Shown one piece after another: positions 5,853-59,538 of a DNA stretch of 64,000 nt. Location of the stretch: positions 38,619,759 to 38,683,758 of the forward strand of contig CAIIXF020000009.1 in the NCBI GenBank assembly GCA_903813345.2, written 5' to 3'. A model generated the notes under the pieces. The model made no database searches. It saw nothing but the letters and a program-made list of their open reading frames with translations, and was not told where the DNA came from. How positions within the stretch are numbered: the first letter of the stretch is position 1; every line of letters begins with the position of its first letter. The position numbers and the translations under genes are program-made. This DNA comes from Owenia fusiformis (Eukaryota; Annelida; Polychaeta; Sabellida; Oweniidae).

Positions 5853-6968
5853 GAGGCAAATGATCCAAATGAGGCAAATGATGCAACTGAGGCAAATGAT
5901 GCAACTGAGGCAAATGATGCAACTGAGGCAAATGATGCAACTGAGACAAATGATGCAACTGAGGCAAATAATGCAACTGAGGCAAATGATGCAACTGGGG
6001 CAAATGAGACAACTGAGGCAAATGAGACAACTGAGGCAAATGATGCAACTAAGGCAAATGAGACAATTAAGGCAACTGAGGCAAATGATGCAACTGAGGC
6101 AAATGATGCAACTGAGGCAAATGATGCAACTGAGGCAAATAATGCAACTGAGGCAAATGATGCAACTGAGGCAAATGAGACAACTGAGGTAAATGATGCA
6201 ACTAAGGCAAATGAGACAACTAAGGCAACTGAGGCAAATGATGCAACTGAGGCAAATGAGACAACTAAGGCAAATGAGACAACTAAGGCAACTGAGGCAA
6301 ATGATGCAACTGAGGCAAATGATGCAACTGAGGCAAATAATGCAACTGAGGCAAATGACACAACTGAGGCAAATAATGCAACTGAGGCAAATGACGCAAC
6401 TGAGGCAAATGAAACAACTGAGACAAATGATGCAACTGAGGCAAATGAGACAACTGAGGCAAATGAGACAACTGAGGCAAATGATGCAACTGAGACAACT
6501 AAGGCAAATGAGACAACTAAGGCAACTGAGGCAAATGATGCAACTGAGGCAAATGATGCAACTGAGGCAAATAATGCAACTGAGGCAAATGACACAACTG
6601 AGGCAAATAATGCAACTGAGGCAAATGATGCAAATGAGACAACTAAGGCAAATGATGCAACTGAGGCAAACAATGCAACTGAAGCAAATGATGCAACTGA
6701 GGCAAATGATGCAACTGAGACGAGTGATGCAAATGAGACAACTGAGGCAAATGATACAACTGAGACAAATGATGCAACTGAAGCAACTGAGGCAAATGAT
6801 ACAACTGAGGCAAATGATGCAACTGGGGCAAATGAGACAACTGAGGCAAATGAGACAACTGAGGCAAATGATGCAACTGAGACAAATGATGCAACTGAGG
6901 CAAATGATGCAACTGAGGCAAATGAGACAACTGAGGCAAATGGTACAACTGAAGCAAATGATGCAACT
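5853..6968. repeat. 18-bp minisatellite built from 9-bp subunits, open in several frames
   Basis: About 1.1 kb of GCAACTGAG/GCAAATGAT nonamers, usually alternating to form an 18-bp unit. All length changes I see are multiples of 9, so reading frame is never lost: one plus frame is open for 406 codons (5766-6986; hexapeptide EANDAT) and one minus frame for 404 codons (5762-6976; ASFASV-type). The unit simply has no stop triplet in these frames, so openness alone is weak evidence of coding. No signal peptide, no non-repeat domain, and no strong promoter or splice cue is visible. The start at 5766 precedes about 28 non-repeat residues (MINKLNITSPSS...). I call it a repeat; a low-complexity protein is possible but unsupported. 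Confidence 0.9.
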
Positions 6969-7013
6969 GCATCCACAACATTTTAAAGAAAAATATTCAC
7001 TAAAATAGTTTTT

Positions 7014-38800: not shown

Positions 38801-41800
38801 CATCCATATCCTCTCTAATCATCACATCAATCCCACTCCTCTGACACCCGTATCCTCTCCAATCATCACATCAATCCCATTCCTCTGTCATCCATATCCT
38901 CTCCAATCATCACATCAATCCCATTCCTCTGACACCCGTATCCTCTCCAATCATCACATCAATCCCATTCCTCTGACACCCGTATCCTCTCCAATCATCA
39001 CATCAATCCCATTCCTCTGACACCCGTATCCTCTCCAATCATCACATCAATCCCATTCCTCTGTCATCCATATCCTCTCCAATCATCACATCAATCCCAT
39101 TCCTCTGTCACCCATATCCTCTCCAATCATCACATCAATCACATTCCTCTGACACCCGTATCCTCTCCAACCATCACATCAATCCCATTCCTCTGACAAT
39201 CGTATCCTCTCCAATCATCACATCAATCCCATTCCTCTGACAATCGCATCCTCTCCAATCATCACATCAATCCCATTCCTCTGACAATCGCATCCTCTCC
39301 AATCATCACATCAATCCCATTCCTCTGTCATCCATATCCTCTCCAATTATCACATCAATCCCATTCCTCTGTCATCCATATCCTCTCCAATCATCACATC
39401 AATCCCATTCCTCTGACACCTGTATCCTCTCCAATCATCACATCAATCCCATTCCTCTGTCATCCATATCCTCTCCAATCATCACATCAATCCCATTCCT
39501 CTGACACCCGTATCCTCTCCAATCATCACATCAATCCCATTCCTCTGTCACCCATATCCTCTCCAATCATCACATCAATCCCATTCCCCTGTCATCTGTA
39601 TCCTCTCCAATCATCACATCAATCCCATTCCTCTGTCATCCATATCCTCTCCAATCATCACATCAATCCCATTCCTCTGACACCCGTATCCTCTCCAATC
39701 ATCACATCAATCCCATTCCTCTGACACCCGTATCCTCTCCAATCATCACATCAATCCCATTCCTCTGTCATCCATATCCTCTCCAATCATCACATCAATC
39801 CCATTCCTCTGACAATCGCATCCTCTCCAACCATCACATCAATCCCATTCCTCTGACACCCGTATCCTCTCCAACCATCACATCAATCCCATACCTCTGT
39901 CATCCATATCCTCTCCAATCGTCACATCAATCCCATTCCTCTGTCATCCATATCCTCTCCAACCATCACATCAATCCCATTCCTCTGACACCCGTATCCT
40001 CTCCAATCATCACATCAATCCCAGTCCTCTGACACCCATATCCTCTCCAATTATCACATCAATCCCATTCCTCTGACACCCGTATCCTCTCCAATCATCA
40101 CATCAATCCCATTCCTCTGACACCTGTATCCTCTCCAATCATCACATGAATCCCATTCCTCTGTCATCTGTGTCCTCTCCAATCATCACATCAATCCCAT
40201 TCCTCTGACAATCATATCCTCTCCAACCATCACATCAATCCCATTCCTCTGTCATCCATATCCTCTCCAATCATCACATCAATCCCATTCCTCTGACAAT
40301 CGTATCCTCTCCAATTATCACATCAATCCCATTCCTCTGACACCCGTATCCTATCCAATCATCACATCAATCCCATTCCTCTGTCATCCATATCCTCTCC
40401 AATCATCACATCAATCCCATTCCTCTGTCACCCATATCCTCTCCAATCATCACATCAATCCCATTCCTCTGACACCCGTATCCTCTCCAATCATCACATC
40501 AATCCCATTCCTCTGTCATCCATATCCTCTCCAATCATCACATCAATCCCATTCCTCTGTCACCCATATCCTCTCCAATCATCACATCAATCCCATTCCT
40601 CTGACACCCGTATCCTCTCCAATCGTCACATCAATCCCATTCCTCTGTCATCCATATCCTCTCCAACCATCACATCAATCTCATTCCTCTGTCACCCGTA
40701 TCCTCTCCAATCATCACATCAATCCCATACCTCTGACACCCGTATCCTCTCCAATCATCACATCAATCCCATTCCTCTGTCATCCATATCCTCTCCAATC
40801 ATCACATCAATCCCATTCCTCTGTCATCCATATCCTCTCCAATCATCACATCAATCCCATTCCTCTGACACCCGTATCCTCTCCAATCATCACATCAATC
40901 CCATTCCTCTGACACCCGTATCCTCTCCAATCATCACATCAATCCCATTCCTCTGACACCTATATCCTCTCCAATCATCACATCAATCCTATTCCTCTGT
41001 CATCCATATCCTCTCCAATCATCGCATCAATCCCAGTCCTCTGACACCTGTATCCTCTCCAATCATCACATCAATCCCATTCCTCTGTCACCCATATCCT
41101 CTCCAATCATCACATCAATCCCATTCCTATGTCACCCGTATCCTATCCAATCATCACATCAATCCCAGTCCTCTGACACCCATATCCTCTCCAATTATCA
41201 CATCAATCCCATTCCTCTGACACCCGTATCCTCTCCAATCATCACATCAATCCCATTCCTCTGACACCCATATCCTCTCCAATTATCACATCAATCCCAT
41301 TCCTCTGACACCCGTATCCTCTCCAATCATCACATCAATCCCATTTCTCTGTCATCCATATCCTCTCCAATTATCACATCAATCCCATTCCTCTGACACC
41401 CGTATCCTCTCCAATCATCACATCAATCCCATTCCTCTGTCATCCATATCCTCTCCAATCATCACATCAATCCCATTCCTCTGTCATCCATATCCTCTCC
41501 AATCATCACATCAATCCCATTCCTCTGACAATCGCATCCTCTCCAATCATCACATCAATCCCATTCCTCTGTCATGCATATCCTCTCCAATCATCACATC
41601 AATCCCATTCCTCTGACACCCGTATCCTCTCCAATCATCACACCAATCCCATTCCTCTGTCATCCATATCCTCTCCAATCATCACATCAATCCCATTCCT
41701 CTGACACCCGTATCCTCTCCAATCATCACATCAATCCCATTCCTCTGACACCCGTATCCTCTCCAATCATCACATCAATCCCATTCCTCTGTCATCCATA

Positions 41801-44800
41801 TCCTCTCCAATCATCACATCAATCCCATTCCTCTGTCACCCATATCCTCTCCAATCATCACATCAATCCCATTCCTCTGTCATCCATATCCTCTCCAATC
41901 ATCACATCAATCCCATTCCTCTGACAATCGCATCCTCTCCAACCATCATATCAATCCCATTCCTCTGACACCCGTATCCTCTCCAACCATCACATCAATC
42001 CCATACCTCTGTCATCCATATCCTCTCCAATCGTCACATCAATCCCATTCCTCTGTCATCCATATCTTCTCCAACCATCACATCAATCCCATTCCTCTGA
42101 CACCCGTATCCTCTCCAATCATCACATCAATCCCATTCCTCTGACACCCGTATCCTCTCCAATCATCACATCAATCCCATTCCTCTGACACCCATATCCT
42201 CTCCAATTATCACATCAATCCCATTCCTCTGACACCCATATCCTCTCCAATCATCACATCAATCCCATTCCTCTGACAATCGTATCCTCTCCAATCATCA
42301 CATCAATCCCATTCCTCTGACACCCGTATCCTCTCCAATCATCACATCAATCCCATTCCTCTGACAATCATATCCTCTCCAACCATCACATCAATCCCAT
42401 TCCTCTGACACCCGTATCCTCTCCAATCATCACATCAATCCCATTCCTCTGACACCCGTATCCTCTCCAACCATCACATCAATCCCACTCCTCTGTCATC
42501 CATATCCTCTCCAATCATCACATCAATCCCATACCTCTGTCATCCATATCCTCTCCAATCATCACATCAATCCCATTCCTCTGACACCCGTATCCTCTCC
42601 AATCATCACATCAATCCCATTCCTCTGACAATCGTATCCTCTCCAATCATCACATCAATCCCATTCCTCTGACACCCGTATCCTCTCCAATCATCACATC
42701 AATCCCATTCCTCTGACAATCATATCCTCTCCAACCATCACATCAATCCCATTCCTCTGACACCCGTATCCTCTCCAATCATCACATCAATCCCATTCCT
42801 CTGTCATCCATATCCTCTCCAATCATCACATCAATCCCATTCCTCTGACACCCGTATCCTCTCCAATCATCACATCAATCCCATTCCTCTGACAATCGTA
42901 TCCTCTCCAATCATCACATCAATCCCATTCCTCTGACACCCGTATCCTCTCCAATCATCACATCAATCCCATTCCTCTGACAATCATATCCTCTCCAACC
43001 ATCACATCAATCCCATTCCTCTGACACCCGTATCCTCTCCAACCATCACATCAATCCCATACCTCTGTCATCCATATCCTCTCCAATCGTCACATCAATC
43101 CCATTCCTCTGTCATCCATATCCTCTCCAACCATCACATCAATCCCATTCCTCTGACACCCGTATCCTCTCCAATCATCACATCAATCCCATTCCTCTGT
43201 CATCCATATCCTCTCCAACCATCACATCAATCCCATTCCTCTGTCACCCATATCCTCTCCAATCATCACATCAATCCCATTCCTCTGTCATCAGTATCCT
43301 CTCCAATCATCACATCAATCCCATTCCTCTGACACCCATATCCTCTCCAATCATCACATCAATCCCATTCCTCTGTCATCAGTATCCTCTCCAATCATCA
43401 CATCAATCCCATTCCTCTGTCATCAGTATCCTCTCCAATCATCACATCAATCCCATTCCTCTGTCATCCATATCCTCTCCAATCATCACATCAATCCCAT
43501 TCCTCTGACATCCATATCCTCTCCAATCGTCACATCAATCCCATTCCTCTGTCATCCATATCCTCTCCAACCATCACATCAATCCCATTCCTCTGTCACC
43601 CATATCCTCTCCAATCATCACATCAATCCCATTCCTCTGTCATCAGTATCCTCTCCAATCATCACATCAATCCCATTCCTCTGTCATCAGTATCCTCTCC
43701 AATCATCACATCAATCCCATTCCTCTGTCATCCATATCCTCTCCAATCATCACATCAATCCCATTCCTCTGACATCCATATCCTCTCCAATCGTCACATC
43801 AATCCCATTCCTCTGTCATCCATATCCTATCCAATCATCACATCAATCCCATTCCTCTGTCATCCATATCCTCTCCAATCATCACATCAATCCCATTCCT
43901 CTGACAATCGTATCCTCTCCAATCATCACATCAATTCCATTCCTCTGTCATCCATATCCTCTCCAACCATCACATCAATCCCAGTCCTCTGACAATCGTA
44001 TCCTCTCCAATCATCACATCAATCCCATACCTCTGCCATCCATATCCTCTCCAATCATCACATCAATCCCATTCCTCTGACACCCGTATCCTCTCCAATC
44101 ATCACATCAATCCCATTCCTCTGACACCCGTATCCTCTCCAATCATCACATCAATCCCATTCCTCTGTCACCCATATCCTCTCCAATCATCACATCAATC
44201 CCATTCCCCTGTCATCTGTATCCTCTCCAACCATCACATCAATCCCATTCCTCTGACAATCGCATCCTCTCCAATCATCACATCAATCCCATTCCTCTGA
44301 CACCCGTATCCTCTCCAATCATCACATCAATCCCATTCCTCTGACACCCATATCCTCTCCAATTATCACATCAATCCCATTCCTCTGACACCCGTATCCT
44401 CTCCAATCATCACATCAATCCCATTCCTCTGACACCCATATCCTCTCCAATCATCACATCAATCCCATTCCTCTGACACCCGTATCCTCTCCAATCATCA
44501 CATCAATCCCATTCCTCTGTCATCCATATCCTCTCCAATCATCACATCAATCCCATTCCTCTGTCATCCATATCCTCTCCAATCATCACATCAATCCCAT
44601 TCCTCTGACACCCGTATCCTCTCCAATCATCACATCAATCCCATTCCTCTGTCACCCATATCCTCTCCAATTATCACATCAATCCCATTCCTCTGTCATC
44701 CATATCCTCTCCAATCATCACATCAATCCCACTCCTCTGACACCCGTATCCTCTCCAACCATCACATCAATCCCATTCCTCTGACACCCGTATCCTCTCC

Positions 44801-47800
44801 AATCATCACATCAATCCCATTCCTCTGACACCCGTATCCTCTCCAATCATCACATCAATCCCATTCCTCTGACACCCATATCCTCTCCAATCATCACATC
44901 AATCCCATTCCTCTGTCATCCATATCCTCTCCAATCATCACATCAATTCCATTCCTCTGTCATCCATATCCTCTCCAATCATCACATCAATCCCATTCCT
45001 CTGTCATCCATATCCTCTCCAATAATCACATCAATCCCATTCCTCTGTCATCCATATCCTCTCCAACCATCACATCAATCCCATACCTCTGTCATCCATA
45101 TACTCTCCAATCATCACATCAATCCCATTCCTCTGTCATCCATATCCTCTCCAATCATCACATCAATCCCATACCTCTGTCATCCATATCCTCTCCAACC
45201 ATCACATCAATCCCATTCCTCTGTCATCCATATCCTCTCCAATCATCACATCAATCCCATTCCTCTGACACCCGTATCCTCTCCAATTATCACATCAATC
45301 CCATTCCTCTGTCATCCATATCCTCTCCAATTATCACATCAATCCCATTCCTCTGACACCCGTATCCTCTCCAATCATCACATCAATCCCATTCCTCTGT
45401 CATGCATATCCTCTCCAATCATCACATCAATCCCATTCCTCTGACACCCGTATCCTCTCCAATCATCACATCAATCCCATTCCTCTGACACCCGTATCCT
45501 CTCCAATCGTCACATCAATCCCATTTCTCTGTCACCTGTATTCTCTGACTACCCCCAGCCACAATTACTGGTATTGAGTCCCAACTTTTGTATTACATCA
45601 ATTGGCTCCAGATTTTGACCTAGAATATACTTTTACACCCAAACTTAAGATCAAATGAACAATTATAACTCCTGGGAACTTTGCTTTATTTTATTTTTAT
45701 TTTTTGCTTCATATGAGTGGGTGATATTGTCTAATGACAACTTGCCACTATTATATCAAAGGTCATCTTTCATACAAATGATGACCATCTCCCTCAGATT
45801 CATATAAGTGGGTGATATTGTCTAATGACAACTTGCCACAATTATATCAAAGGTCATCTTTCATACAAATGATGACCATCTCCCTCAGATTCATATGAGA
45901 GGGTGATATTGTCTAATGACAACTCGCCACTATTATATCAAAGGTCATCTTTCATACAAATGATGACCATCTCCCTCAGATTTATATGAGAGGGTGATAT
46001 TGTCTAATGACAACTTTCCACTATTATATCAAAGGTCATCTCTCATACAAATGATGACCATCTCCCTCAGATTCATATGAGTGGGTGATATTGTCTAATG
46101 ACAACTCGCCACAATTATATCAAAGGTCATCTCTCATACAAATGATGACCATCTCCCTCCGATTCATATGAGAGGGTGATATTGTCTAATGACAACTCGC
46201 CACTATTATATCAAAGGTCATCTTTCATACAAATGATGACCATCTCCCTCAGATTCATATGAGAGGGTGATATTGTCTAATGACAACTCGCCACTATTAT
46301 ATCAAAGGTCATCTTTCATACAAATGATGACCATCTCCCTCAGATTCATATGAGTGGGTGATATTGTCTAATGACAACTTGCCACTATTATATCAAAGGT
46401 CATCTTTCATACAAATGATGACCATCTCCCTCAGATTCATATGAGTGGGTGATATTGTCTAATGACAACTTGCCACTATTATATCAAAGGTCATCTTTCA
46501 TACAAATGATGACCATCTCCCTCAGATTCATATGAGAGGGTGATATTGTCTAATGACAACTTGCCACTATCATATCAAAGGTCATCTTTCATACAAATGA
46601 CTGGTATTGAGTCCCAACTTTTGTATTACATCAATTGGCTCCAGATTTTGACCTAGAATATACTTTTACACCCAAACTTAAGATCAAATGAACAATTATA
46701 ACTCCTGGGAACTTTGCTTTATTTTAGGGATGTTACTGTAATTAAAAAAAGAATACAATTACAACATGATAAAGAACGGTAGTTTCATGAGCATCCTTTG
46801 GGGATATCTCTTATCTTGCATGGTTAATTAAATTTTATTTCCAGAAAACTTAAGCCCAACAGACTGGAATAATATGAATTGCAGTATCCTGATCAATGCC
46901 CTCCAGAATATAACCTAACAATGCCCTCCAGAATATAACCTATCAATGCCCTCCAGAATATAACCTATCCTTGCAAGAGCATAATTTCTAATTGTACAGA
47001 ATGTTTTATTCCAAATGTTTTATTCCAAATGATGACCATCTCCCTCAGATTCATATGAGAGGGTGATATTGTCTAATGACAACTCGCCACTATTTTATCA
47101 AAGGTCATCTTTCATACAAATGATGACCATCTCCCTCAGATTCATATGAGTGGGTGATATTGTCTAATGACAACTTGCCACTATTATATCAAAGGTCATC
47201 TTTCATACAAATGATGACCATCTCACTCAGATTCATATGAGTGGGTGATATTGTCTAATGACAACTCGCCACTATTATATCAAAGGTCATCTCTCATACA
47301 AATGATGACCATCTCCCTCAGATTCATATGAGTGGGTGATATTGTCTAATGACAACTTGCCACTATTATATCAAAGGTCATCTTTCATACAAATGATGAC
47401 CATCTCCCTCAGATTCATATGAGTGGGTGATATTGTCTAATGACAACTTGCCACTATTATATCAAAGGTCATCTTTCATACAAATGATGACCATCTCCCT
47501 CAGATTCATATGAGAGGGTGATATTGTCTAATGACAACTTGCCACTATTATATCAAAGGTCATCTTTCATACAAATGATGACCATCTCCCTCAGATTCAT
47601 ATGAGTGGGTGATATTGTCTAATGACAACTTGCCACTATTATATCAAAGGTCATCTTTCATACAAATGATGACCATCTCCCTCAGATTCATATGAGTGGG
47701 TGATATTGTCTAATGACAACTTGCCACTATTATATCAAAGGTCATCTCTCATACAAATGATGACCATCTCCCTCAGATTCATATGAGAGGGTGATATTGT

Positions 47801-50800
47801 CTAATGACAACTTGCCACTATTATATCAAAGGACATCTCTCATACAAATGATGACCATCTCCCTCAGATTCATATGAGAGGGTGATATTGTCTAATGACA
47901 ACTTGCCACTATTATATCAAAGGTCATCTTTCATACAAATGATGACCATCTCCCTCAGATTCATATGAGTGGGTGATATTGTCTAATGACAACTTGCCAC
48001 TATTATATCAAAAGTCATCTTTCATACAAATGATGACCATCTCCCTCAGATTCATATGAGTGGGTCATATTGTCTAATGACAACTTGCCACTATTATATC
48101 AAAGGTCATCTCTCATACAAATGATGACCATCTCCCTCAGATTCATATGATAGGGTGATATTGTCTAATGACAACTTGCCACTATTTTATCAAAGGTCAT
48201 CTTTCATACAAATGATGACCATCTCCCTCAGATTCATATGAGAGGGTGATATTGTCTAATGACAACTTGCCACTATTATATCAAAGGTCATCTCTCATAC
48301 AAATGATGACCATCTCCCTCAGATTCATATGAGTGGGTGATATTGTCTAATGACAACTTGCCACTATTATATCAAAGGTCATCTTTCATACAAATGATGA
48401 CCATCTCCCTCAGATTCATATAAGTGGGTGATATTGTCTAATGACAACTTGCCACAATTATATCAAAGGTCATCTTTCATACAAATGATGACCATCTCCC
48501 TCAGATTCATATGAGAGGGTGATATTGTCTAATGACAACTCGCCACTATTATATCAAAGGTCATCTTTCATACAAATGATGACCATCTCCCTCAGATTCA
48601 TATGAGAGGGTGATATTGTCTAATGACAACTTGCCACTATTATATCAAAGGTCATCTCTCATACAAATGATGACCATCTCCCTCAGATTCATATGAGTGG
48701 GTGATATTGTCTAATGACAACTCGCCACAATTATATCAAAGGTCATCTCTCATACAAATGATGACCATCTCCCTCCGATTCATATGAGAGGGTGATATTG
48801 TCTAATGACAACTCGCCACTATTATATCAAAGGTCATCTTTCATACAAATGATGACCATCTCCCTCAGATTCATATGAGAGGGTGATATTGTCTAATGAC
48901 AACTCGCCACTATTATATCAAAGGTCATCTTTCATACAAATGATGACCATCTCCCTCAGATTCATATGAGTGGGTGATATTGTCTAATGACAACTTGCCA
49001 CTATTATATCAAAGGTCATCTTTCATACAAATGATGGCCATCTCCCTCAGATTCATATGAGTGGGTGATATTGTCTAATGACAACTTGCCATTATTATAT
49101 CAAAGGTCATCTTTCATACAAATGATGACCATCTCCCTCAGATTCATATGAGAGGGTGATATTGTCTAATGACAACTTGCCACTATTATATCAAAGGTCA
49201 TCTTTCATACAAATGATGACCATCTCCCTCAGATTCATATGAGTGGGTGATATTGTCTAATGACAACTTGCCACTATTATATCAAAGGTCATCTTTCATA
49301 CAAATGATGACCATCTCCCTCAGATTCATATGAGTGGGTGATATTGTCTACTGACAACTTGCCACTATTATATCAAAGGTCATCTCTCATGCAAATGATG
49401 ACCATCTCCCTCAGATTCATATGAGAGGGTGATATTGTCTAATGACAACTTGCCACTATTATATCAAAGGTCATCTCTCATACAAATGATGACCATCTCC
49501 CTCAGATTCATATGAGAGGGTGATATTGTCTAATGACAACTTGCCACTATTATATCAAAGGTCATCTTTCATACAAATGATGACCATCTCCCTCAGATTC
49601 ATATGAGTGGGTGATATTGTCTAATGACAACTTGCCACTATTATATCAAAGGTCATCTTTCATACAAATGATGACCATCTCCCTCAGATTCATATGAGAG
49701 GGTGATATTGTCTAATGACAACTTGCCACAATTATATCAAAGGTCATCTTTCATACAAATGATGACCATCTCCCTCAGATTCATATGAGAGGGTGATATT
49801 GTCTAATGACAACTCGCCACTATTATATCAAAGGTCATCTTTCATACAAATGATGACCATCTCCCTCAGATTCATATGAGAGGGTGATATTGTCTAATGA
49901 CAACTTGCCACTATTATATCAAAGGTCATCTCTCATACAAATGATGACCATCTCCCTCAGATTCATATGAGTGGGTCATATTGTCTAATGACAACTTGCC
50001 ACTATTATATCAAAGGTCATCTCTCATACAAATGATGACCATCTCCCTCAGATTCATATGAGAGGGTGATATTGTCTAATGACAACTCGCCACTATTATA
50101 TCAAAGGTCATCTTTCATACAAATGATGACCATCTCCCTCAGATTCATATGAGAGGGTGATATTGTCTAATGACAACTCGCCACTATTATATCAAAGGTC
50201 ATCTTTCATACAAATGATGACCATCTCCCTCAGATTCATATGAGAGGGTGATATTGTCTAATGACAACTTGCCACTATTAAATCAAAGGTCATCTTTCAT
50301 ACAAATGATGACCATCTCCCTCAGATTCATATGAGAGGGTGATATTGTCTAATGACAACTTGCCACAATTATATCAAAGGTCATCTTTCATACAAATGAT
50401 GACCATCTCCCTTAGATTCATATGAGAGGGTGATATTGTCTAATGACAACTCGCCACTATTATATCAAAGGTCATCTTTCATACAAATGATGACCATCTC
50501 CCTCAGATTCATATGAGTGGGTGATATTGTCTAATGACAACTTGCCACTATTATATCAAAGGTCATCTCTCATACAAATGATGACCATCTCCCTCAGATT
50601 CATATGAGAGGGTGATATTGTCTAATGACAACTTGCCACTATCATATCAAAGGTCATCTTTCATACAAATGATGACCATCTCCCTCAGATTCATATGAGT
50701 GGGTGATATTGTCTAATGACAACTCGCAACTATTATATCAAAGGTCATCTTTCATAAAAATGATGACCATCTCCCTCAGATTCATATGAGAGGGTGATAT

Positions 50801-53800
50801 TGTCTAATGACAACTCGCCACTATTATATCAAAGGTCATCTCTCATACAAATGATGACCATCTCCCTCAGATTCATATGAGTGGGTGATATTGTCTAATG
50901 ACAACTTGCCACTATTATATCAAAGGTCATCTCTCATACAAATGATGACCATCTCCCTCAGATTCATATGAGAGGGTGATATTGTCTAATGACAACTTGC
51001 CACTATTATATCAAAGGTCATCTCTCATACAAATGATGACCATCTCCCTCAGATTCATATGAGAGGGTGATATTGTCTAATGACAACTTGCCACTATTAT
51101 ATCAAAGGTCATCTCTCATACAAATGATGACCATCTCCCTCAGATTCTTATGAGAGGGTGATATTGTCTAATGACAACTCGCCACTATTATATCAAAGGT
51201 CATATTTCATACAAATGATGACCATCTCCCTCAGATTCATATGAGTGGGTGATATTGTCTAATGACAACTTGCCACTATTATATCAAAGGTCATCTTTCA
51301 TACAAATGATGACCATCTCCCTCAGATTCATATGAGTGGGTGATATTGTCTAATGACAACTCGCCACTATTATATCAAAGGTCATCTCTCATACAAATGA
51401 TGACCATCTCCCTCAGATTCATATGAGTGGGTGATATTGTCTAATGACAACTTGCCACTATTATATCAAAGGTCATCTTTCATACAAATGATGACCATCT
51501 CCCTCAGATTCATATGAGTGGGTGATATTGTCTAATGACAACTTGCCACTATTATATCAAAGGTCATCTTTCATACAAATGATGACCATCTCCCTCAGAT
51601 TCATATGAGAGGGTGATATTGTCTAATGACAACTTGCCACTATCATATCAAAGGTCATCTTTCATACAAATAATGACCATCTCCCTCAGATTCATATGAG
51701 TGGGTGATATTGTCTAATGACAACTTGCCACTATTATATCAAAGGTCATCTTTCATACAAATGATGAACATCTCCCTCAGATTCATATGAGTGGGTGATA
51801 TTGTCTAATGACAACTTGCCACTATTATATCAAAGGTCATCTCTCATACAAATGATGACCATCTCCCTCAGATTCATATGAGAGGGTGATATTGTCTAAT
51901 GACAACTTGCCACTATTATATCAAAGGTCATCTTTCATACAAATGATGACCATCTCCCTCAGATTCATATGAGAGGGTGATATTGTCTAATGACAACTCG
52001 CCAATATTATATCAAAGGTCATCTTTCATACAAATGATGACCATCTCCCTCAGATTCATATGAGAGGGTGATATTGTCTAATGACAACTTGCCACAATTA
52101 TATCAAAGGTCATCTTTCATACAAATGATGACCATCTCCCTCAGATTCATATGAGAGGGTGATATTGTCTAATGACAACTCGCCACTATTATATCAAAGG
52201 TCATCTTTCATACAAATAATGACCATCTCCCTCAGATTCATATAAGAGGGTGATATTGTCTAATGACAACTTGCCACTATTATATCAAAGGTCACCTTCA
52301 TACAAATGATGACCATCTCCCTCAGATTCATATGAGTGGGTGATATTGTCTAATGACAACTTGCCACTATTATATCAAAGGTCATCTCTCATACAAATGA
52401 TGACCATCTCCCTCAGATTCATATGAGAGGGTGATATTGTCTAATGACAACTTGCCACTATTATATCAAAGGTCATCTTTCATACAAATGATGACCATCT
52501 CCCTCAGATTGTGATAAAACAAATTGCTATTCTGTATAGCATGTACATGTCTGAGCTATAGCAACACAAAATTATTTATTAATGTCCCCTATGGAGCCAT
52601 TTGTTAGTAATTCAATTGGAAATGTTTTGTAACATGGTTTCTAATTCGAAAGTCAGCAACATGGGGATAGTAATATATTGGTGATGCTTGGTGTTGATTC
52701 TCAATTAAGACAGACTGTCCTATTCCCAGGTGTTCTGGTTGAAAATGTGTCCTATATTACTATTTACTGCAAGAAAAGATTGATTTCACAAACACCCACT
52801 GGGTTTCCATTTTGGTGTGACCAATTTTCCAAATTATTTAATAAATAAGCAATGGTCTTTAGGAAAGTACCAAAGCAATCAATAAATTGTAAAACTACAA
52901 ATCTTGAAATCCCCAAATCAAGAGAGAAGATTACACAATCCCATCCCATGTGAGATGGCCACCATTTTTCAAGATGGCCATCAATTTTTAAATATTTGGA
53001 TTTTCAACTTAGTCAATATTCTATATACTTTTTGCATTTTAAACATACGAACGTATAAAATAAAAACAATATTGGTTCAATGGTTTTTGATTTATTGCCA
53101 GATGGATGTACTAACGGACATATGTACAGAAATTGCTGTTCTCTATATGGGATAATAATTGATAGAACAACCTAGATTACAATATTTTAGACGAAGAAAT
53201 AATTGTTAAATTAACATATGATTTTAAACAGCAGTATTTCGAAAATGTGTTCTGAAGCAGAAGTTATGGCTGCAAAATTTAAACAACATTTCTTCACTTA
53301 TTTCTTATTAAGAGTCATGGTTGACAAAACAAAGTTGATATGGTTAAATGCATGACTGTATACTAAATACTGGTAGGTAAGTGACAGTTGCATTCAGTGT
53401 CAGTTCTATTTTTTAGATTTGATTGACGAAGAGAAACAGTGAAAAGGACTTTAAATTAATAACAAGTCCAGTGGTATACTCACCCTGGAATAGCCTGACT
53501 ACAGTAAAGTTAGATACCATTGTCACAAATGGCGGACATAACCGTCACTTCAATTAGATTTTCATGAACTGTATGTTTAATAGAGCACCTAGACTAAATT
53601 CCTTTGGAACAACAATCAATCAAAGTGTCTTAATACTTATTGTACAGTTAATAATGTTCTACCATCGAAATAAAGTCTTTAATTTAACCGATCAAAATGA
53701 GATACGGAACAAGGAGCACTGTAATTACCATATGCCGTTGTCTTTCTAAATTACTCAAATTCAGATTCTGTTGTCATTGAAGATATAGAAGACGCTATAT

Positions 53801-56800
53801 TGTGGCGATTCACGACCCAATTTGATCGAAAATGGGATTTCATAAGATACATTATCACAAGAGCTTAATGCATGCACAGAATTAGCGACGATAAAATCCC
53901 ATGATATGAGGACCAAGTGATTAAACAATTGAAGCGACGGTGATGTCTGCCATTTGTGACAACGGTATCTGACTTTACCATAGTCAGGCTATTCCGGTTT
54001 GATACTAGTATATAAATAATAATGGTTAAATATGGACTTACTGTATATTCTGTAAGACATAGGGATACAGGAAGGTTTCAGTCAGCACCGGGACACAGCA
54101 ACAAGAAACATGCAAAAAGAATTAGTACAATGTAAGACCATTATTAAATTAGCATTAAATTAGCATGGTGAAAATGTATAAAATCACATGTATATGTAAT
54201 AAATTACTTTCACACTGAATTCAAAAGCCAAATAATGGATGATTAATTCACTTAAATATTTCCACAGTGACAATAATTAGTCAAAGCAAATAAAAATAAA
54301 CCAGGCAGTTAAGGTTGCAAGCAGTTTCACTGAGGTCTTCAAGGCATTTTTGACAACTTGAAGGTCAACTAAAGGTCAAATCTCAATTTGAGATCAAATG
54401 TTAACTCCCAAGAACTAATATATGATAAAAAAGTTTGGTAAAGGATTGGTATCGATATCGTGAACTGAATTCAACAATGTTTTTCTCTTAAACCAATTAT
54501 TGAAAACATTCTGTAAAAAAAACGGTCCTTGATGTAATGTTGACTGATTGACAACAGTTTAAATGCAAAAATTATTTATATATATTTTATATAAGTGTTT
54601 TTGTTAATTTTTTTTTGTTTGTTTTAGTGCAATTGTTTTTTCCTTTCTACCAATTCTTGAGAATGAAATAAAATATCTTTCTGAACCTTATTGGAACAAG
54701 ATAGCATATACATTTTCTTAGACCTCTCAATATTACAGTTAATGAAAGGAAAGTTTGGTTGATTTAACAAATAATATTCAAAAAATTAAAACAAAAATCG
54801 CCAAAATATATAAAAATTAAGATTTTATTTCATTAACAAGATACTTTTTTGAATGAATTAAACTTTACTTTGTACAGTTACAATATTGAGAGACCTAAAC
54901 ACATTGTGTTTATTTCATTTTGTTCCAAAGAGGTTCAGATAGATGTTTCATTTCATTCCAAAAATATGATACCAAGAACAAATGAAGTGTCTGATGAGTT
55001 TTCTCGAACAATATAGAAATTTTTTTTTTTGATGACTGGTTTAAGAGAAACGTGTGCTCAAAAGTTCATCATATCTATACCAATCCAAAGTTGAAATTTT
55101 GTCTTGAAAAATTTCGAAATTTAAACTTTTTACAGTTTTTAAGCTCTTATATTTCAAACTTTGCACAAAATTTTAATAGATAGTCAATTGCTCGTATATG
55201 TAGAACCCTTAGAGGAATGCATATGCTGACTTTTAATTAAAAATGTTGATTTGTAGTCTCAAACTTTGAGAAACTTAGATAGCACAGTTTGTCACCTAAC
55301 TCGATGACCTTGACTTTTAAAATTTTAATTTTTCAGACATCAGTGGGAATTTTGTAATTAAGCTGACCTAAAGTTGAATACATGTAATTAATTTGAAAAA
55401 TCAACATATTTTACCTTTCGAAGGTCACAGAAGGTCAACTAAATGTCAATACTCAAATCTAAGGTCAGATATGGAATCCTGGCAATTTGCAGATGATTTT
55501 TTAAAAAATTGGTTGGATTGAAGCAAGATGAAAAGTGACTTGATTTGACCATTTTTTGACGTCAAATATCTCAAAAATGGTTAAACTTTAATGCTATTAT
55601 ATAATGAACAATTTATAGAAAATTCTTATTTCAATTAAATTCACTGCAAGAAATAATAACTAGACAACAGCAATATGTAGCAAATCCCATCGAACAGACA
55701 TGGCTCTGGCATTTTAACAAAATCCTTCTACTACTTTTTCAGTTACAGCAAAAATCATAAAATAACACACATAAAAATGGCCAACATATTTAAAAATGGT
55801 CGCTAAGAGACTGTAATATGCTTTTAAGTAGGCACATATAAAATTTACAAAACAAAGTCACCCACATGTACATGTAAATGGCGGCTATTATTAAAATGGC
55901 CAAACTACTAGCCAAAGTGTCATAAGACAGTATGCCAAGCTTCTGAATATTCACATATCAAATATGAACAAAATCAATCAATTACTATTTGCACGGTCCA
56001 CATCCCGCTCCGTATGATATGGTCTGTTCGTGTGCTAGAATACGATCCCTTCGTGAGACAAAGAGGCCAAAATTGACAAAATGTCAGGAAAAAGTAGGAA
56101 ACAGAGCGAATTTTGATATTTTGTGAATGGTTAACTATAGGCAACATAATTACTTATGCATTCATGAAGAAAGCAAGAAAAAATATCAAGCCTTCATAGG
56201 TGAAAATCGGTCGAACATAGACTTTTCACGACAGAATACACTTCAATTGCAATAATTCTTTTATATTACCGTACATATCTAATTTCGTGCAATTTATAAA
56301 GTACATGCATTAATGCATGCGACTGATAAACAAACATGACGTAATACATCACAAAAGTACATGAAAATGTGGTTTAAAACTCGAGTCGTGTGAGGATAAT
56401 TTGGGGACTCCGACCATGTCCTGTTAATAGTTCCATCTTTTCGTGTTCTTTGCACGACTAATTAATGCCCCAGTGCTAAGATTGATCTCTGAATGGAATA
56501 GGTTATCTCCAGTCTATTCCCACCATCTCTTTGTTCAAAAGTAAAATCAGAAACAAATCTTGAAAGTTTAATGACTTCAATACAACTTCTAAACTCAATC
56601 TTTCTCGAAAACAAGAAATTTTCTTGAACAGAATTAGATGCGGACTCTAATTTGAATCACAAAAGATTGCTCATGATTTCCCTAACACAGCTAATCTAAT
56701 TGTCTGTGGTAAGAGTACAACTCCCAAACACTCGATTCTGCAATGTAAGCGCCATTCAACCCAAAGAAAAAACCTTTAAGAAACCCTTGGGCAGCAAAAT

Positions 56801-59538
56801 CTTGAGACCCATCTAATTGAACAAGACAAAACTGAATTTTTTATTTTCATTTTCATTTTCAATTGAACAGGATTCTCGATTAAAAGGAAGGCTCGTTGAT
56901 TTTATTCTTAGCTTGGCCTAACCCATTTTATTCTGACATACTTTTCACCATTAAGTTAGCACAATTGTATGTATAACTCACTCAATTAATTTGATTTATG
57001 TTCATTCCAAAACGCTAGCCTGTAATGCAAATTGCGCTAGGCAGCGAACTGTGTAACTGCAATATAATTTGAAATGATGTATAATGAACTGAAAAAATCT
57101 TTTCGTGTGAAAAAATTCGACCAATTCGTGTTTTACGTATACAAAAAATATATTCAAATCGGCATGCATATATACAATCATTGTATCATATAATTTATTT
57201 TTGTATATGCCATCCGTTTCAACATGAACTGGTCTGTTTGGACGACTGGATAATTTATGAGAATAAGTTGGCTTTTGGGTGTGGATGTCGATGGTAGTTC
57301 ATTTTTATTTTCGTCTAAATAAGTGTCCGTTTCATTCTGTATCGGCACTTTTAACGACATCTAGAAAAGATAAACAACCATAATTAGCTATTGAGCTTTA
57401 ATACACTGACTCTAGTGTAATAGATATATTAACTTCCATGGATTTAGTATGGTAACTTTAAAATATGTTCATGGTATTTATTGGTTCAAAACATGACAAT
57501 ATGGAGCTCAAAACACGGTAGGGTCGGAAATGAAACACGGTAGGATCGTAAGAGAAACGCGCGTGGGTCGGATCCATTCTAAAAATTTAACCTGCAGAGT
57601 CGGATCCTCTTCTAATTTGCTTTTGACTATTTTAAAATGGGTATATACCAAGAAACATTCAATTGGCGTTATTTCATCGATCAATATATACAAAGGCTTC
57701 ATTTGATTTACATAATATACCACAATGAAGTATATTTGACATGTAAATGACGATAAGGAAGCAGAAACTAACTCTCTCCGCATGTATGTCGTCACCACAA
57801 ATAAATCCAATGTTTTTGAGCATTCAAATACTTAGACAACTTTTTTCAATTTAATATTCATATATTTATCAATTTAAATCGCGCAGTATAAATGTAAACT
57901 CAAAGAATACTCTAATAATAAAACTCACCTCCGAATTTCCTCCCTATAGAGGCGGTATGGTCGGATCTTGTGCACACAAACGGACCATATCATATGGAGC
58001 GGGATGTGGACCGTGATTTGGGTTAAGGTAAAAAAACATAAAATAATACACATAAATATGGTGGCCACCTTCGAGCAAAAGTTTCATAAAACAGTGTGCC
58101 ATGCTTATGAGTATTTACATATCAAATATGAATAAAATAGCTTTATTACTTTTTTAATATAACACACGTAAAAATTTAACCATTAAAAAATCGTAAAATA
58201 ATGTGTAAAGGCTGCCATTTTTCAAGATGGCTGCCATGTGTTTCTTAAATATCTACATTAACTAGCTTTATTAATGTCCTATGTAACTTTTTTACTTTTA
58301 AAACATTTTGCTATTACCGTTTCATATATTGTACTTAAAATCGGCACTAAAATGGCCACTATTCTTAAACGAGCGGCCATTTTGAAAGTCCTCTTTCATT
58401 CAAGAGGGGGATTAACCCCAGAGTTCAAAGATGACATACGCTTATAATGTAAACCTGTATTGAGATGACATATACCTCTGATTGGTCCAAATCGATAAAC
58501 AAAAATGGCGGATTCAAAATTTTCTAATAACGCTTCGAATAATATCATGTTGATTCCTGGCGTATTAACCAATATCATAGCTTGGTTTTTCACATCAAGA
58601 TAAAGAAATATGTAAGGAATATGTTTACATCGATTAAAACATCACGACGACGCGCTATTTTAGTATTGGTGAGAAACAACATACTGCATATCACAATAAT
58701 ACTACTTAATGTTAATAGTTTCGATTCAACTAAAATATCTTAACAATATTCCTTGTAACATTGGATTCATTTTCAAATTGCTATTTACTGGCACATTGAC
58801 TTTTAAGAAGAATCATCATTGGCAGCAAAGGTAGTACAGTGGTATATGCTCTATTATTGAACTGAAAGGGAACAATATCTAAAGCGATTGTTAAAAAATG
58901 AATGCAATTGAGCTGATGGTCTTTAATTCACATAAAGCAATTAGTGAACTGACTGTATTTCCCAAAGGGACCATCCTGGCATGTCTGTCAAAACATATTT
59001 TAATAAATAATAAGTGATTCTAAGGCTTCATTATTAATTTACTGCATCTAAATACATGAACCAATAAAATAGATTTTTACCTAATGGGGCATAATGTAAA
59101 TAACTTGTTGCATAGCCTTCGTTTGTAATAGGCAAATGCAAGGCTATGCAACAACAATGCAAGCATTCGCGAATACAAGGTTAGTGTAGTAAAAGCTTTA
59201 TATAAAGCCTTTATACAGTAATGCCTGGGTCACATTTGCTCCGATTCATCGGCCTATTCATAATTGTATTCAGTTTTGAACAGAATACTCAATCGGCTGG
59301 GGCGCCGGCCGATGATATGAGCAAATGTGACCAAGGCATAAATTGGTTGGATTTCAGATTTGATATTATGCCTATTACAATATAATAATAATTTCATGTG
59401 CCTATTATCATGTTGTTTGCACTGGTATTCCCATTTGACATGGACTCACCTGTTATGGTGAATGGATAGTAGTTCCAGGCTTTCTCTGTCACATAGAATA
59501 CATTAGGTATGACTGACCGGATCCAGCTAGGTAATCGA
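8711..59538 (-). CDS. PITPNC1: PITPNC1 (RdgB-beta) orthologue, eight visible exons, 5' part outside the window
   Basis: Class IIB phosphatidylinositol transfer protein. Known family role: a soluble START-like lipid carrier that binds phosphatidylinositol and phosphatidic acid in the cytosol. Exons in order of transcription are 59538-59450, 54049-54042, 32571-32500, 28588-28490, 26857-26798, 26405-26310, 22550-22487 and 8898-8711. All have AG/GT borders; phases agree, giving 224 complete residues plus a partial codon. Recognisable blocks are LPSW, FYVTEKAWNYYPF, FSIHIETRYQDN, REVVHVDIAYDPIP, SEKTQRGPL, PVMCSYKNVRVKCDIWLLQS, LLLGHRQAFAWIDEWHGMT and EDIREYESEMHEKTN. From memory, GHRQAFAW.DEW and REYE..MHE.TN match vertebrate PITPNC1 much better than class I PITPs or RdgB/PITPNM. 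The class I Trp-Trp membrane loop reads I-W here, as V-W does in vertebrate PITPNC1. About 66 N-terminal residues are missing and should lie beyond base 64000. Confidence 0.94.
8899..9561 (-). other. 3' part of the last PITPNC1 intron outside the satellite
   Basis: Non-repeat intron between the 43-bp array and the last acceptor. A TTAACTCATTG motif at 8926 recalls the end of the TTAA-flanked element at 4108-4820, but I found no matching right end. No exon-like frame seen. Confidence 0.5.
9562..22347. repeat. 43-bp minisatellite, ~12.8 kb, about 300 copies, with higher-order structure
   Basis: Unit is TTTGGTCCTATGCATTTAGA then GGATTGTAATAGAGTGGATGGTG. Common variants are TACACATTTAG for TATGCATTTAG, ATAGTGG/GAGCGG for GAGTGG, and GTCTGG for GTTTGG. 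The array fills about 94% of the last PITPNC1 intron. Rare shortened units carrying CATACACGTAATAGAGYGGA occur near 12881, 16522, 16725, 17057 and 17818. Such marker units show that a block near 12.8-16.6 kb recurs near 17.0-20.9 kb. No long open frame, because 43 is not a multiple of three. Confidence 0.97.
22487..22550 (-). CDS. PITPNC1: PITPNC1 exon (64 bp)
   Basis: Acceptor CTCTTGTAG, then GCA GTA CAG..., ending CATG before the donor GTAATT. Reads AVQDILLLGHRQAFAWIDEW-H plus the first base of Gly. GHRQAFAW.DEW is the signature block of the class II PITP C-terminal half. Phase enters 0 and leaves 1, matching both neighbours. Confidence 0.95.
22551..22821 (-). other. PITPNC1 intron, no feature
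   Basis: Ordinary intron between the exon and the LINE. A near-palindromic ATATCTGCA/TGCAGATAT pair (about 22773-22818) lies just before the LINE start. Confidence 0.5.
23152..24475. repeat. 162-bp tandem repeat, eight units plus a partial one
   Basis: GGTTTGGC anchors recur at 23152, 23314, 23476, 23638, 23799, 23960, 24122, 24284 and 24446, giving a period of 162 (161 twice). Each unit carries ACCTGTAGACAAGTCTTGAA, CCAAAATGGCCACCTT, TCAGTTCTTGACGTTGATA and TTTCAGATGAATCCCTC. Units are nearly identical, so the array is young or homogenised. Confidence 0.96.
24482..24540. repeat. CCGCC/CCGC simple repeat
   Basis: GC-only run of CCGCC-like motifs directly after the 162-bp array and just inside the right TIR of the cassette. 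It is the only strongly GC-rich stretch in the region; I read it as simple repeat, not a CpG promoter. Confidence 0.9.
25973..26309 (-). other. PITPNC1 intron with a 40-bp direct duplication
   Basis: GAGTATATYGTSRCRATATC recurs at 26043 and 26083 as part of a ~40-bp unit present twice. Otherwise unremarkable intron. Confidence 0.5.
26310..26405 (-). CDS. PITPNC1: PITPNC1 exon (96 bp, 32 residues)
   Basis: Acceptor TTATTTCCAG, donor GTAAGTGG, both phase 0. Reads ETSSPVMCSYKNVRVKCDIW then LLQSKVESFTHK. This is the P-(I/V)-M-C-(S/A)-YK-x-V-x-VK-x block of PITPs, which precedes the membrane-inserting tryptophan loop. Confidence 0.95.
26798..26857 (-). CDS. PITPNC1: PITPNC1 exon (60 bp, 20 residues)
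   Basis: Acceptor TTGATTTTAG, donor GTGAGT, phase 0 on both sides. Reads DPTKFQSEKTQRGPLEKGWR, matching the PITP block DP..FKS.KTGRG.L...W. The conserved Gly after KT is Gln here. Confidence 0.95.
26999..27380. repeat. 32-bp minisatellite, about 12 copies
   Basis: Unit GCTCATTGGCAATTGTAGTG followed by CTACACCCATTT, with scattered substitutions. Lies in the intron between the 99-bp and 60-bp PITPNC1 exons. Confidence 0.93.
27457..28412. mobile_element. Non-autonomous element with ATGTCACCACC inverted ends (copy 1)
   Basis: Starts ATGTCACCACCTAGTTGCTC and ends in the exact inverted copy GGTGGTGACAT. The interior is four or so degenerate ~150-bp direct repeats with AAGTCAGATTTGAACTTCTG, AACTTGTAGAAGATTTTG and TTGAAGGTCAAATCTT. 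A second copy with the same left end is at 33157-34585. No coding capacity; class unknown. Confidence 0.65.
28490..28588 (-). CDS. PITPNC1: PITPNC1 exon (99 bp, 33 residues)
   Basis: Acceptor GTATTGCAG, donor GTATGG, phase 0 on both sides. Reads CLNLPDTDLAQREVVHVDIA then YDPIPAHKYKENE. REV..-DIA-x-D-x-IP is the PITPNC1-type strand. A downstream AG (TTGCCAG) would break phase with the previous exon, so the first acceptor is preferred. Confidence 0.94.
28589..28895 (-). other. PITPNC1 intron, no feature
   Basis: AT-rich intron with no repeat or exon that I can recognise. Confidence 0.5.
28896..29672. repeat. 13-bp minisatellite, about 60 copies
   Basis: Unit CCTGTATTGCAYC/CTTGTATTGCACT. All frames of both strands contain long open stretches because the unit lacks stops, and 13 is not a multiple of three so the frames rotate; none is a gene. 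Confidence 0.96.
29673..30330 (-). other. PITPNC1 intron, no feature
   Basis: No supported gene or repeat. Confidence 0.5.
30331..30400 (+). repeat. tRNA-like head, probable SINE or tRNA pseudogene
   Basis: GGTTCAATTCC (30383-30393) is a near-perfect pol III B box, with the T-stem CAGG...CCTG around it. About 32 bases upstream, TGGTCTGTCGG (30340-30350) is a degenerate A box. The acceptor stem does not pair convincingly, so a functional tRNA is unlikely. Confidence 0.5.
30582..31092. repeat. 51-bp minisatellite, about 10 copies
   Basis: Unit GAGTAATTATACTCAATGAG, GTGAACTGCCAATATAAACA, TACAAATGTGT. The array is bracketed by the same CCAATCAACTAACTG at 30604 and about 31078. Since 51 is divisible by three, two minus frames stay open for 169 codons each; I treat these as by-products. 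Confidence 0.95.
31093..32499 (-). other. PITPNC1 intron with a small AT repeat
   Basis: At about 31754-31838 a TATATTATATACAGAATATA / TTGTACACATGA unit is repeated two to three times. Otherwise no supported feature. Confidence 0.5.
32500..32571 (-). CDS. PITPNC1: PITPNC1 exon (72 bp, 24 residues)
   Basis: Acceptor TATATTTTCCAG, donor GTAAGTTA. Reads CSFIPRFSIHIETRYQDNSG then TSEN, matching the PITPNC1 block CSF.PKFSIHIET.YEDN. In phase 0 only if the upstream 8-nt microexon is included. Confidence 0.95.
32572..33156 (-). other. PITPNC1 intron with a dispersed 38-bp match
   Basis: The segment 32750-32787 (with GACCTACCAGGTGTTTGAAA) recurs with one mismatch at 60503-60540. Otherwise no feature. 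Confidence 0.55.
33157..34585. mobile_element. ATGTCACCACC-ended element (copy 2), interrupted
   Basis: Same left end as the element at 27457 and a right end GGTGGTCACAT (one mismatch to the inverted left end). Interior of degenerate ~150-bp repeats (GAAGGTCAAATCTT, AACTTGTAGATGATTTTG). A separate hairpin element is inserted at 33406-33991. Confidence 0.65.
33406..33991. mobile_element. 586-bp fold-back MITE with 8-bp target duplication
   Basis: Flanked by GAGAAGGT at 33398-33405 and 33992-33999. Removing the element and one copy restores CTTGAGAAGGTCATTGA, the usual sequence of the surrounding repeat. The two halves are long imperfect inverted repeats: CAGCTGAGTAATAGTGACC at about 33466 mirrors the segment ending at 33930, and CCGTGCAAGTATTGGAGCGC is mirrored in the right half. 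An 8-bp duplication fits hAT-type transposition. The open frames at 33621-33881 (plus) and 33614-33910 (minus) lie within it and look incidental. Confidence 0.8.
34829..35075. mobile_element. TTAA-flanked short inverted-repeat element (239 bp)
   Basis: TTAA (34829-34832), then GGTCAGGGTGCG; at the right GCACCCTGGCC, then TTAA (35072-35075). The ends are inverted copies (GGTCAGGGTGC and GGCCAGGGTGC). The TTAA duplication suggests a piggyBac- or Kolobok-type non-autonomous element. Confidence 0.7.
35076..35528 (-). other. PITPNC1 intron, no feature
   Basis: Unique AT-rich intron between the TTAA element and the 44-bp array; nothing recognised. Confidence 0.5.
35529..45543. repeat. 44-bp minisatellite, ~10 kb, about 225-230 copies
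   Basis: Unit TCCTCTCCAATCATCACATC then AATCCCATTCCTCTGWCAYC and CRTA. Four main subtypes of the variable tail occur: GTCATCCATA, GACACCCGTA, GACAATCGTA and GTCACCCATA. Two 42-bp units (AATCATTCC lacking two bases) occur as a pair near 35541 and again near 36153, marking an internal duplication. The array is pyrimidine-rich on plus and lies in the 21.5-kb PITPNC1 intron. The open frame at 41574-41924 is incidental. Confidence 0.97.
45567..45693. repeat. 127-bp unique segment duplicated at 46600-46726
   Basis: ACTGGTATTGAGTCCCAACT through CTTTGCTTTATTTTA occurs at both places, nearly identical and exactly 1033 bp apart. Each copy borders the 91-bp array, so it appears that array and flank were duplicated together. 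Confidence 0.9.
45709..46599. repeat. 91-bp satellite, first block, about 10 copies
   Basis: Unit CAGATTCATATGAGTGGGTG, ATATTGTCTAATGACAACTT, GCCACTATTATATCAAAGGT, CATCTTTCATACAAATGATG, ACCATCTCCCT. The block is cut off by the duplicated 127-bp segment at 46600. Confidence 0.97.
46600..47023. other. Non-satellite spacer between the two 91-bp blocks
   Basis: The first 127 bases duplicate 45567-45693. The rest is unique apart from a small triplication of CCCTCCAGAATATAACCTA (about 46898-46970). Confidence 0.85.
47024..52510. repeat. 91-bp satellite, main block, about 60 copies
   Basis: Same unit as 45709-46599. Variants AGAGGGTG/GTGGGTG, CTCGCC/CTTGCC and TCTCTCAT/TCTTTCAT mix along the array. 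Marker variants (CATATAAGTGGG, CTCCGATTC) at 45801 and 46159 recur at 48417 and 48775, the same 2616-bp offset. The marker GTGGGTCATATT recurs with a spacing of about 1.91 kb (21 units). Confidence 0.97.
52511..53486 (-). other. PITPNC1 intron, no gene seen
   Basis: Includes the degenerate motif GAGATGGCCACCATTTTTCA (about 52951), akin to the dispersed 'ATGGCCACC' repeats elsewhere in the window. No exon-like frame. Confidence 0.5.
53487..53995. mobile_element. ~509-bp MITE with ~70-bp inverted ends
   Basis: Left end GGAATAGCCTGACTACAGTA and right end, inverted, GGAATAGCCTGACTATGGTA. The inverted match continues through AGATACC, TTGTCACAAATGGC and CTTCAATT for about 70 bases with a few mismatches. 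No transposase. Target duplication unclear. Its right end is 46 bases from the 8-nt PITPNC1 microexon, on the donor side. Confidence 0.8.
54042..54049 (-). CDS. PITPNC1: PITPNC1 8-nt microexon
   Basis: Minus strand reads TATGTCTTACAG, then AATATACA, then GTAAGTCC: a consensus acceptor with a pyrimidine-rich tract and a strong donor. TGCTGAC, an ideal branch site, ends about 31 bases upstream. The 89-bp exon ends ACA-G and the 72-bp exon starts TGC, so two bases plus 3n are needed between them. Adding AATATACA gives T-E-Y-T-C-S, as in vertebrate PITPNC1 (ITEYTCSF, from memory). Skipping shifts frame and meets TGA near the end of the 72-bp exon. Confidence 0.88.
54443..55086. repeat. ~640-bp palindromic fold-back element
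   Basis: GGATTGGTATCGATAT at the left end mirrors ATATCTATACCAATCC at the right. TTTCTCTTAAACCA, ATCTTTCTGAACC and GACCTCTCAATATT also have inverted counterparts in order. The arms are long and imperfect, with an AT-rich centre. It lies between the microexon and the 89-bp exon. Target duplication not clear. Confidence 0.75.
55087..55991. repeat. Degenerate dispersed repeats in intron
   Basis: Contains stretches like the ATGTCACCACC-element interior (AAGGTCACAGAAGGTCAACT at about 55420; similar at 54350-54400). From about 55663 there is a second family (AGCAAATCCCATCGAACAGA, AATGGCC, CATATCAAATATGAACAAAA) that reappears at 58016-58260 and 62405-62935. Confidence 0.55.
55992..58015. mobile_element. 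2.0-kb TIR DNA transposon, non-autonomous, 5-bp target duplication
   Basis: Ends are inverted copies of about 43 bp with three or so mismatches (CACGGTCCACATCCCGCTCC at the left; the right end at 58015 is its complement). ATTTG at 55987-55991 and 58016-58020 is the target duplication. Excision restores a dispersed repeat that continues on both sides. Interior frames (57178-57360 and 57508-57810, minus) are short with no transposase signature. A 5-bp duplication is unusual; I cannot assign the superfamily. Confidence 0.85.
58021..59104 (-). other. Intron with degenerate dispersed repeats
   Basis: To about 58400 this continues the dispersed family split by the 2-kb transposon (ATGGTGGCCACC, CAAGATGGCTGCCATG, ACGAGCGGCCATTTTG). 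After that nothing recognised; the open frame at 58396-58593 has no supported function. Confidence 0.5.
59105..59154. repeat. Perfect 15-bp-stem hairpin
   Basis: TTGTTGCATAGCCTT (59105-59119) and AAGGCTATGCAACAA (59140-59154) are perfect complements with a 20-base loop. About 300 bases from the 89-bp PITPNC1 exon, in its downstream intron. Confidence 0.8.
59222..59338. mobile_element. 117-bp MITE, TAA target duplication
   Basis: TAA at 59219-59221 and 59339-59341 flank ends TGCCTGGGTCACATTTGCTC and, inverted, TGCCTTGGTCACATTTGCTC. GATTCATCGGCC pairs with GGCCGATGATAT inside. A three-base TWA-type duplication fits PIF/Harbinger MITEs. Confidence 0.8.
59450..59538 (-). CDS. PITPNC1: PITPNC1 exon (89 bp), most upstream exon in the window
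   Basis: Acceptor TATATTTCCAG, donor GTGAGTCC. Starts with the last base of a codon (Ser expected), then RLPSWIRSVIPNVFYVTEKA and WNYYPFTIT, and ends with the first base of Glu. The AWN-x-YP-(F/Y) motif is a hallmark of the PITP fold. Earlier exons, including the inositol-binding Thr/Lys segment known from PITPs, are not found up to 64000. Confidence 0.95.

Follow-up and report, generated by a model that had tools for sequence, protein, structure and literature searches.

A probable 8-nt coding microexon in a PITPNC1-like gene of Owenia fusiformis, set beside a splice site shared with paralogues

Nucleotides 54049 to 54042, read on the minus strand of the 64,000-nt stretch of the Owenia fusiformis genome analysed here (the window; C9:38619759-38683758 in a genome of 498 Mb and 525 contigs), very probably form an 8-nt coding exon, constitutively included, in a PITPNC1-like gene, which lies on the minus strand. 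Comparison with the other phosphatidylinositol transfer protein (PITP) genes of this genome suggests that the microexon is probably the tail of an older, longer exon severed by an additional phase-1 intron. Positions without a contig prefix refer to the window, and a slash marks an exon border.

Direct reading of the window gives tcttacag/AATATACA/gtaagt on the minus strand at 54049-54042, in the wider context ...cggtgctgactgaaaccttcctgtatccctatgtcttacag/AATATACA/gtaagtcc... The acceptor, 8-nt exon and donor proposed in a preliminary description of this DNA agree with this reading in sequence, coordinates, strand and both splice sites. We took a microexon to be a coding exon of at most 30 nt with a usable acceptor and donor, and the feature has 8 nt between ttacag and gtaagt. 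The TGCTGAC proposed as a branch-like site upstream was found at 54087-54081; the name follows what we take to be the branch consensus. The flanking introns, previously put at about 5.4 kb and 21.5 kb, measure 5,400 and 21,470 bases.

54042..54049, minus strand: 8-nt microexon AATATACA of PITPNC1; finishes an E codon and adds Y-T; entered in phase 1, left in phase 0
54081..54087, minus strand: TGCTGAC resembling a branch site; 54082 is the candidate branch A, 32 nt ahead of the final base of the intron
54050..59449, minus strand: upstream intron, 5,400 nt, phase 1
32572..54041, minus strand: downstream intron, 21,470 nt, phase 0

The Pfam IP_trans profile (PF02121), which has exon matches on C9, served to locate the larger exons of the gene in the genome. 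Together with the microexon they make up the following model.

C9:38732958-38732911, minus strand: exon 1, 48 nt, MLMKEYRICMPLTVEE
C9:38684031-38683883, minus strand: exon 2, 149 nt
59450..59538, minus strand: exon 3, 89 nt, ends ACAG/gtgagt
32500..32571, minus strand: exon 5, 72 nt, starts TGC TCA TTT, ends AAT/gtaagt
28490..28588, minus strand: exon 6, 99 nt, donor gtatgg
26798..26857, minus strand: exon 7, 60 nt
26310..26405, minus strand: exon 8, 96 nt
22487..22550, minus strand: exon 9, AVQDILLLGHRQAFAWIDEWH, keeps the frame; 3' end placed by eye (CATG/gtaatt)

Exon 3 terminates at 59450 with ACCATAACAG/gtgagt (CAG/gtgagt), and exon 5 starts at 32571 with ttttccag/TGCTCATTT, its first codon being TGC. 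Joined through the microexon, the two give FTIT-EYT-CSF, or at greater length ...AWNYYPFTIT-EYT-CSFIPRFSIHIETRYQD..., and eight exons including the microexon join into a single open frame of 207 aa. Restoration of the frame as E-Y-T, as originally proposed, is thereby borne out. When the microexon is omitted, the frame stops at a TGA after 117 aa, matching the premature TGA foreseen for skipping; this TGA ends 4 nt short of the next junction, and more junctions lie downstream. Human PITPNC1 presumably reads ITEYTCSFLPKF at the same place. A spliced 169-nt query returned only the two genomic exons from the genome and no spliced retrocopy. Searches by pattern for relatives in virus and prokaryote collections gave 21, 182 and 34 matches, with 0 confirmed; a miss means little in such collections.

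The peptide spanning the junction matches IP_trans with E = 1.4e-20, and of 7 PDB matches five are PITP alpha/beta chains whose alignment runs through EYT, the other 2 being weak and unrelated. With the best candidates scored, none of six DDHD matches falls on C9, unlike what is expected of class IIA, and three of the six fall on C12, downstream of the PITP exons of a PITPNM-type gene. In partial hand-built models the PITP domain is 46% identical to that of the PITPNM-type gene and 43% and 40% identical to those of two class I-type genes. The N-terminus, MLMKEYRICMPLTVEEY, resembles what we take to be the N-terminus of human PITPNC1. Class IIB proteins also have a C-terminal disordered extension with 14-3-3 sites, and the model given here covers exons 1 to 9. 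The gene carrying the microexon, which encodes a lipid-transfer protein, would be a PITPNC1-like, class IIB PITP.

How readily such a feature might arise by chance was gauged with dinucleotide shuffles of the 26,878 bases that separate the flanking exons, on the coding strand, and of a satellite-free version from which tandem arrays had been taken out (10,412 bases). In the 26,878-base interval itself, the coding strand has a single AG-(AR TAY ACN)-GT. This pattern appeared at least once in 19 of 1000 shuffles of the whole interval, and in 1 of 1000 with YAG and GTRAG as splice sites; the satellite-free shuffles gave 16 of 3000 and 0 of 3000, respectively. Spacing by itself is not significant, YAG-N8-GTRAG being present in 815 of 1000 whole-interval shuffles and 686 of 3000 satellite-free ones, and YAG-N8-GTRAGT in 281 of 1000. 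A looser coding pattern, AG-E[YF][TSV]-GT, was present in 189 of 1000. The opposite strand of the window holds one more AG-(EYT)-GT, at 31807, with a weak donor (GTACAC). Chance origin of the microexon was thus rejected on the exact coding fit and the splice sites jointly, not on spacing. AG-N8-GT itself was observed 23 times vs 97 expected in the whole interval, and 23 times vs 26.9 without the arrays; given the counts by spacing and the tandem arrays, this deficit, which is nearly gone without the arrays, is best put down to array periodicity.

We also scanned the same interval for candidate exons of 2 to 60 nt that would bring the reading frame back with no stop codon. Strict criteria (YAG, pyrimidine tract, GTRAG) left two candidates, the microexon and an 11-nt exon at 53494. 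Since the strict donor criteria would reject the gene's own exon 6 donor, gtatgg, they were loosened, the number of candidates rising to 6 when a wider donor pattern was allowed, to 31 when any GT could serve as donor and to 800 when bare AG/GT sufficed. EYT is encoded by the microexon alone in every set (1/2, 1/6, 1/31 and 1/800), so the E-Y-T fit noted earlier is unique among frame-restoring candidates of up to 60 nt. That a different exon is used instead, such as the one starting at 53494 in the end of a MITE, is therefore hardly credible. Besides the microexon, only the 53494 exon both restores the frame at up to 60 nt and passes the strict YAG, pyrimidine-tract and GTRAG criteria, and the 31 and 800 looser candidates add to the choice on paper. 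However, the 53494 exon inserts GYSR where homologues carry three residues (EYT, IIS, EYS, RYK), it sits inside one of the inverted ends of a repeat, and among the 31 and the 800 only the microexon yields EYT. A recursive-splicing point, with the eight bases there by chance, is a very improbable reading, too. A donor close behind an acceptor inside a very long intron does recall such points, but these are described as an acceptor and a donor juxtaposed (PMC8605326), a ratchet point having nothing between the two, whereas here eight coding bases lie between them and supply the missing codons and the frame.

Inclusion of the microexon is probably constitutive, as is to be expected because 8 nt is not divisible by three. 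The strong donor (ACA/gtaagt) would help the spliceosome to use the exon despite its size, and the branch-like site 32 nt upstream, along with the pyrimidine-rich tract, would aid recognition of so tiny an exon. Skipping would lead to a truncated product of 117 aa, expected to be non-functional, and the transcript would be a target of nonsense-mediated decay, since further junctions come after its stop. In zebrafish, no protein is reported to be detectable after a frameshift in pitpnc1a (PMC6092267), which by analogy fits the notion that skipping would amount to a null. Alternatively, the microexon might be regulated, partial skipping causing a premature stop and lowering PITPNC1 dose in some tissues. 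We consider this unlikely. Its length that is not a multiple of three, the early TGA with later junctions downstream, and the two long flanking introns would suit regulation, and in C. elegans the dependence of small exons on PRP-40 is reported to grow with the length of the flanking introns (PMC8378409). On the other hand, the splice sites are near consensus, and PRP-40-regulated microexons, according to the same source, strongly favour frame preservation (PMC8378409).

The PF02121 search gave 29 matches, all of which resolve into four PITP loci except a weak one at C12:15243541 (E 4.5). Besides PITPNC1, the loci are these.

C12:14981000-14987435: class I-type PITP gene; ...EKAWNAYPYCRTIIS/gtaagt, then ttacag/N PDYMKGGFEIKIET, phase 0
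C5:30021042-30029563: second class I-like PITP gene; ...EKSWNFYPVTRTEYS/gtaagt (DNA ACAGAATATAGT), then tgtag/N VYMREHFYEIVET, phase 0
C12:1095766-1112360: PITPNM-type gene, with DDHD matches at C12:1118494-1124088; EEAWNAYPYTKTRYKCPFIEKFLLEVETRY within one exon

In a protein alignment EYT, IIS, EYS and RYK occupy the same columns, and the paralogues encode theirs without a microexon. Both class I-type genes have the equivalent bases fused to the preceding exon, which is 100 nt long in each; their borders are IIS/N and EYS/N, in phase 0, with no intron upstream. The 89-nt exon 3 of PITPNC1 and the 8 nt add up to 97, the class I-type exon having one codon more. PITPNC1 has the intron downstream of the microexon in common with both class I-type genes, at the same position and in the same phase; of the four loci examined, PITPNC1 alone has the phase-1 intron upstream of the microexon. 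The PITPNM-type gene has neither flanking intron, KTRYKCPF being uninterrupted there.

The microexon is taken as an exon tail because the class I-type genes hold the equivalent bases at the end of their 100-nt exon. Eight nucleotides upstream of the older splice site, the PITPNC1 lineage would have acquired an intron, or been the only one to keep it; insertion at an AG/A site would leave the eight bases as an exon of their own. As the simplest account, we prefer a single gain of the intron in the lineage of PITPNC1 to loss elsewhere. It is possible, if doubtful, that the common ancestor of animal PITP genes already had the phase-1 intron and that class I and PITPNM genes then lost it, in which case the microexon would predate the class split; this bears on the origin step only and not on the existence of the microexon. 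Old introns do persist in the family: judged by eye, the two class I-type genes have five other intron positions in common with PITPNC1. These positions include the 3' border of the microexon; introns 1 and 2 of the five lie before the exon starting YRIGQLY/YQVAQLY/FQVGHLY and, in phase 2, right before RLP/KVP, and introns 4 and 5 lie after EN and before the HRQ-containing exon (by eye). The PITPNM-type gene appears to have none of the five (by eye), which implies that introns were lost or moved there. Against an ancestral intron, it is absent from both class I-type genes and from the PITPNM-type gene, so that gain takes one event and loss takes more.

Some features of the paralogues were recorded in passing. 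The PITPNM-type gene carries, at C12:1110300-1111110, several partial tandem copies of the exon covering the microexon region; they sit upstream of the read-through exon, and by eye only the last stays in frame. Downstream of the genuine MCAYKLVTVQF/MTAYKLCKVEF exon, both PITP genes on C12 have partial copies of it, at C12:14987097-14987204 in the class I-type gene and C12:1111867-1111965 in the PITPNM-type gene. Within the class I-like gene on C5, one intron (about C5:30024600-30026400) holds a frame that by eye is like LINE-type reverse transcriptase (FLDIAAAFDRV...YADDT).

Much of the downstream intron is repetitive, tandem array making up 16.5 kb of its 21,470 bases, a point absent from the preliminary description.

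53481..54001, no strand assigned: MITE-like repeat of about 520 bp, its inverted ends about 69 bp long and 90% identical
35527..45536, no strand assigned: 44-bp tandem array, about 228 copies, downstream intron
47026..52510, no strand assigned: 91-bp tandem array, about 60 copies, downstream intron; 10 more copies at 45708-46600

A small 25-bp array lies in the same intron. The MITE-like repeat, also in the downstream intron, begins 40 nt from the microexon rather than the 46 first given, its start being near 54001. Its left end has at least 40 further genome matches, a count in which two matches can be both ends of one copy, as is the case for at least one pair. Elsewhere in the window, a 167-aa frame at 25281-25784 on the plus strand resembles by eye the end of a LINE reverse transcriptase, and further long open frames of repetitive sequence lie at 1918-2715, 5762-6986, 28812-29669 and 30572-31122.

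Frame-essential microexons are already a known kind; what is new here, and absent from the preliminary description, is the comparison with paralogues of the same genome. SRRM3/4-dependent neural microexons are often in frame and alternatively included. As described, they resemble the PITPNC1 microexon in being tiny and in having TGC-containing sequence upstream; the PITPNC1 microexon is 8 nt, not a multiple of three, so skipping shifts the frame and, unlike the SRRM3/4 type, it must be included to hold that frame. The 4-bp microexon of MPC1, like that of PITPNC1, is not a multiple of three (PMC9929638). It is reported to be constitutive and to be recognised via strong exon-definition regions in the bordering introns (PMC9929638). 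MPC1 is another gene, its microexon is 4 nt vs 8, and it is minigene-proven (PMC9929638), whereas the PITPNC1 microexon is predicted from sequence. MPC1-like or PRP-40-like recognition may, by analogy, apply to the PITPNC1 microexon as well.

No report of a microexon in PITPNC1 or PITPNA was found in the main texts of the open-access literature, and within the same scope a single plant study combined a microexon with phosphatidylinositol transfer. Judging from locus numbering, we take the rice transcript Os03t0287100-01 of that study to be OsPITP alpha (LOC_Os03g17800). OsPITP alpha, LOC_Os03g17800, is described as an IP_trans gene of rice (PMC10255633). The plant study places Os03t0287100-01, a phosphatidylinositol transfer protein, in microexon cluster 17 (PMC8831610), which is thus like PITPNC1 in having a microexon (at most 15 nt there) in a phosphatidylinositol transfer protein gene (PMC8831610). 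That the animal PITPNC1 and plant PITP microexons occupy the same place in IP_trans, by descent or by repeated intron entry, seems to us decidedly improbable. If true, it would make PITP genes a recurrent or very old microexon site beside an ancient phase-0 splice site.

Exons so small are easily overlooked in annotation, and omission of this one would result in a truncated PITPNC1 model. The four PITP loci of this one genome resemble the states before and after the birth of a microexon, and they would illustrate one route to it, the placing of an intron 8 nt from a pre-existing splice site.
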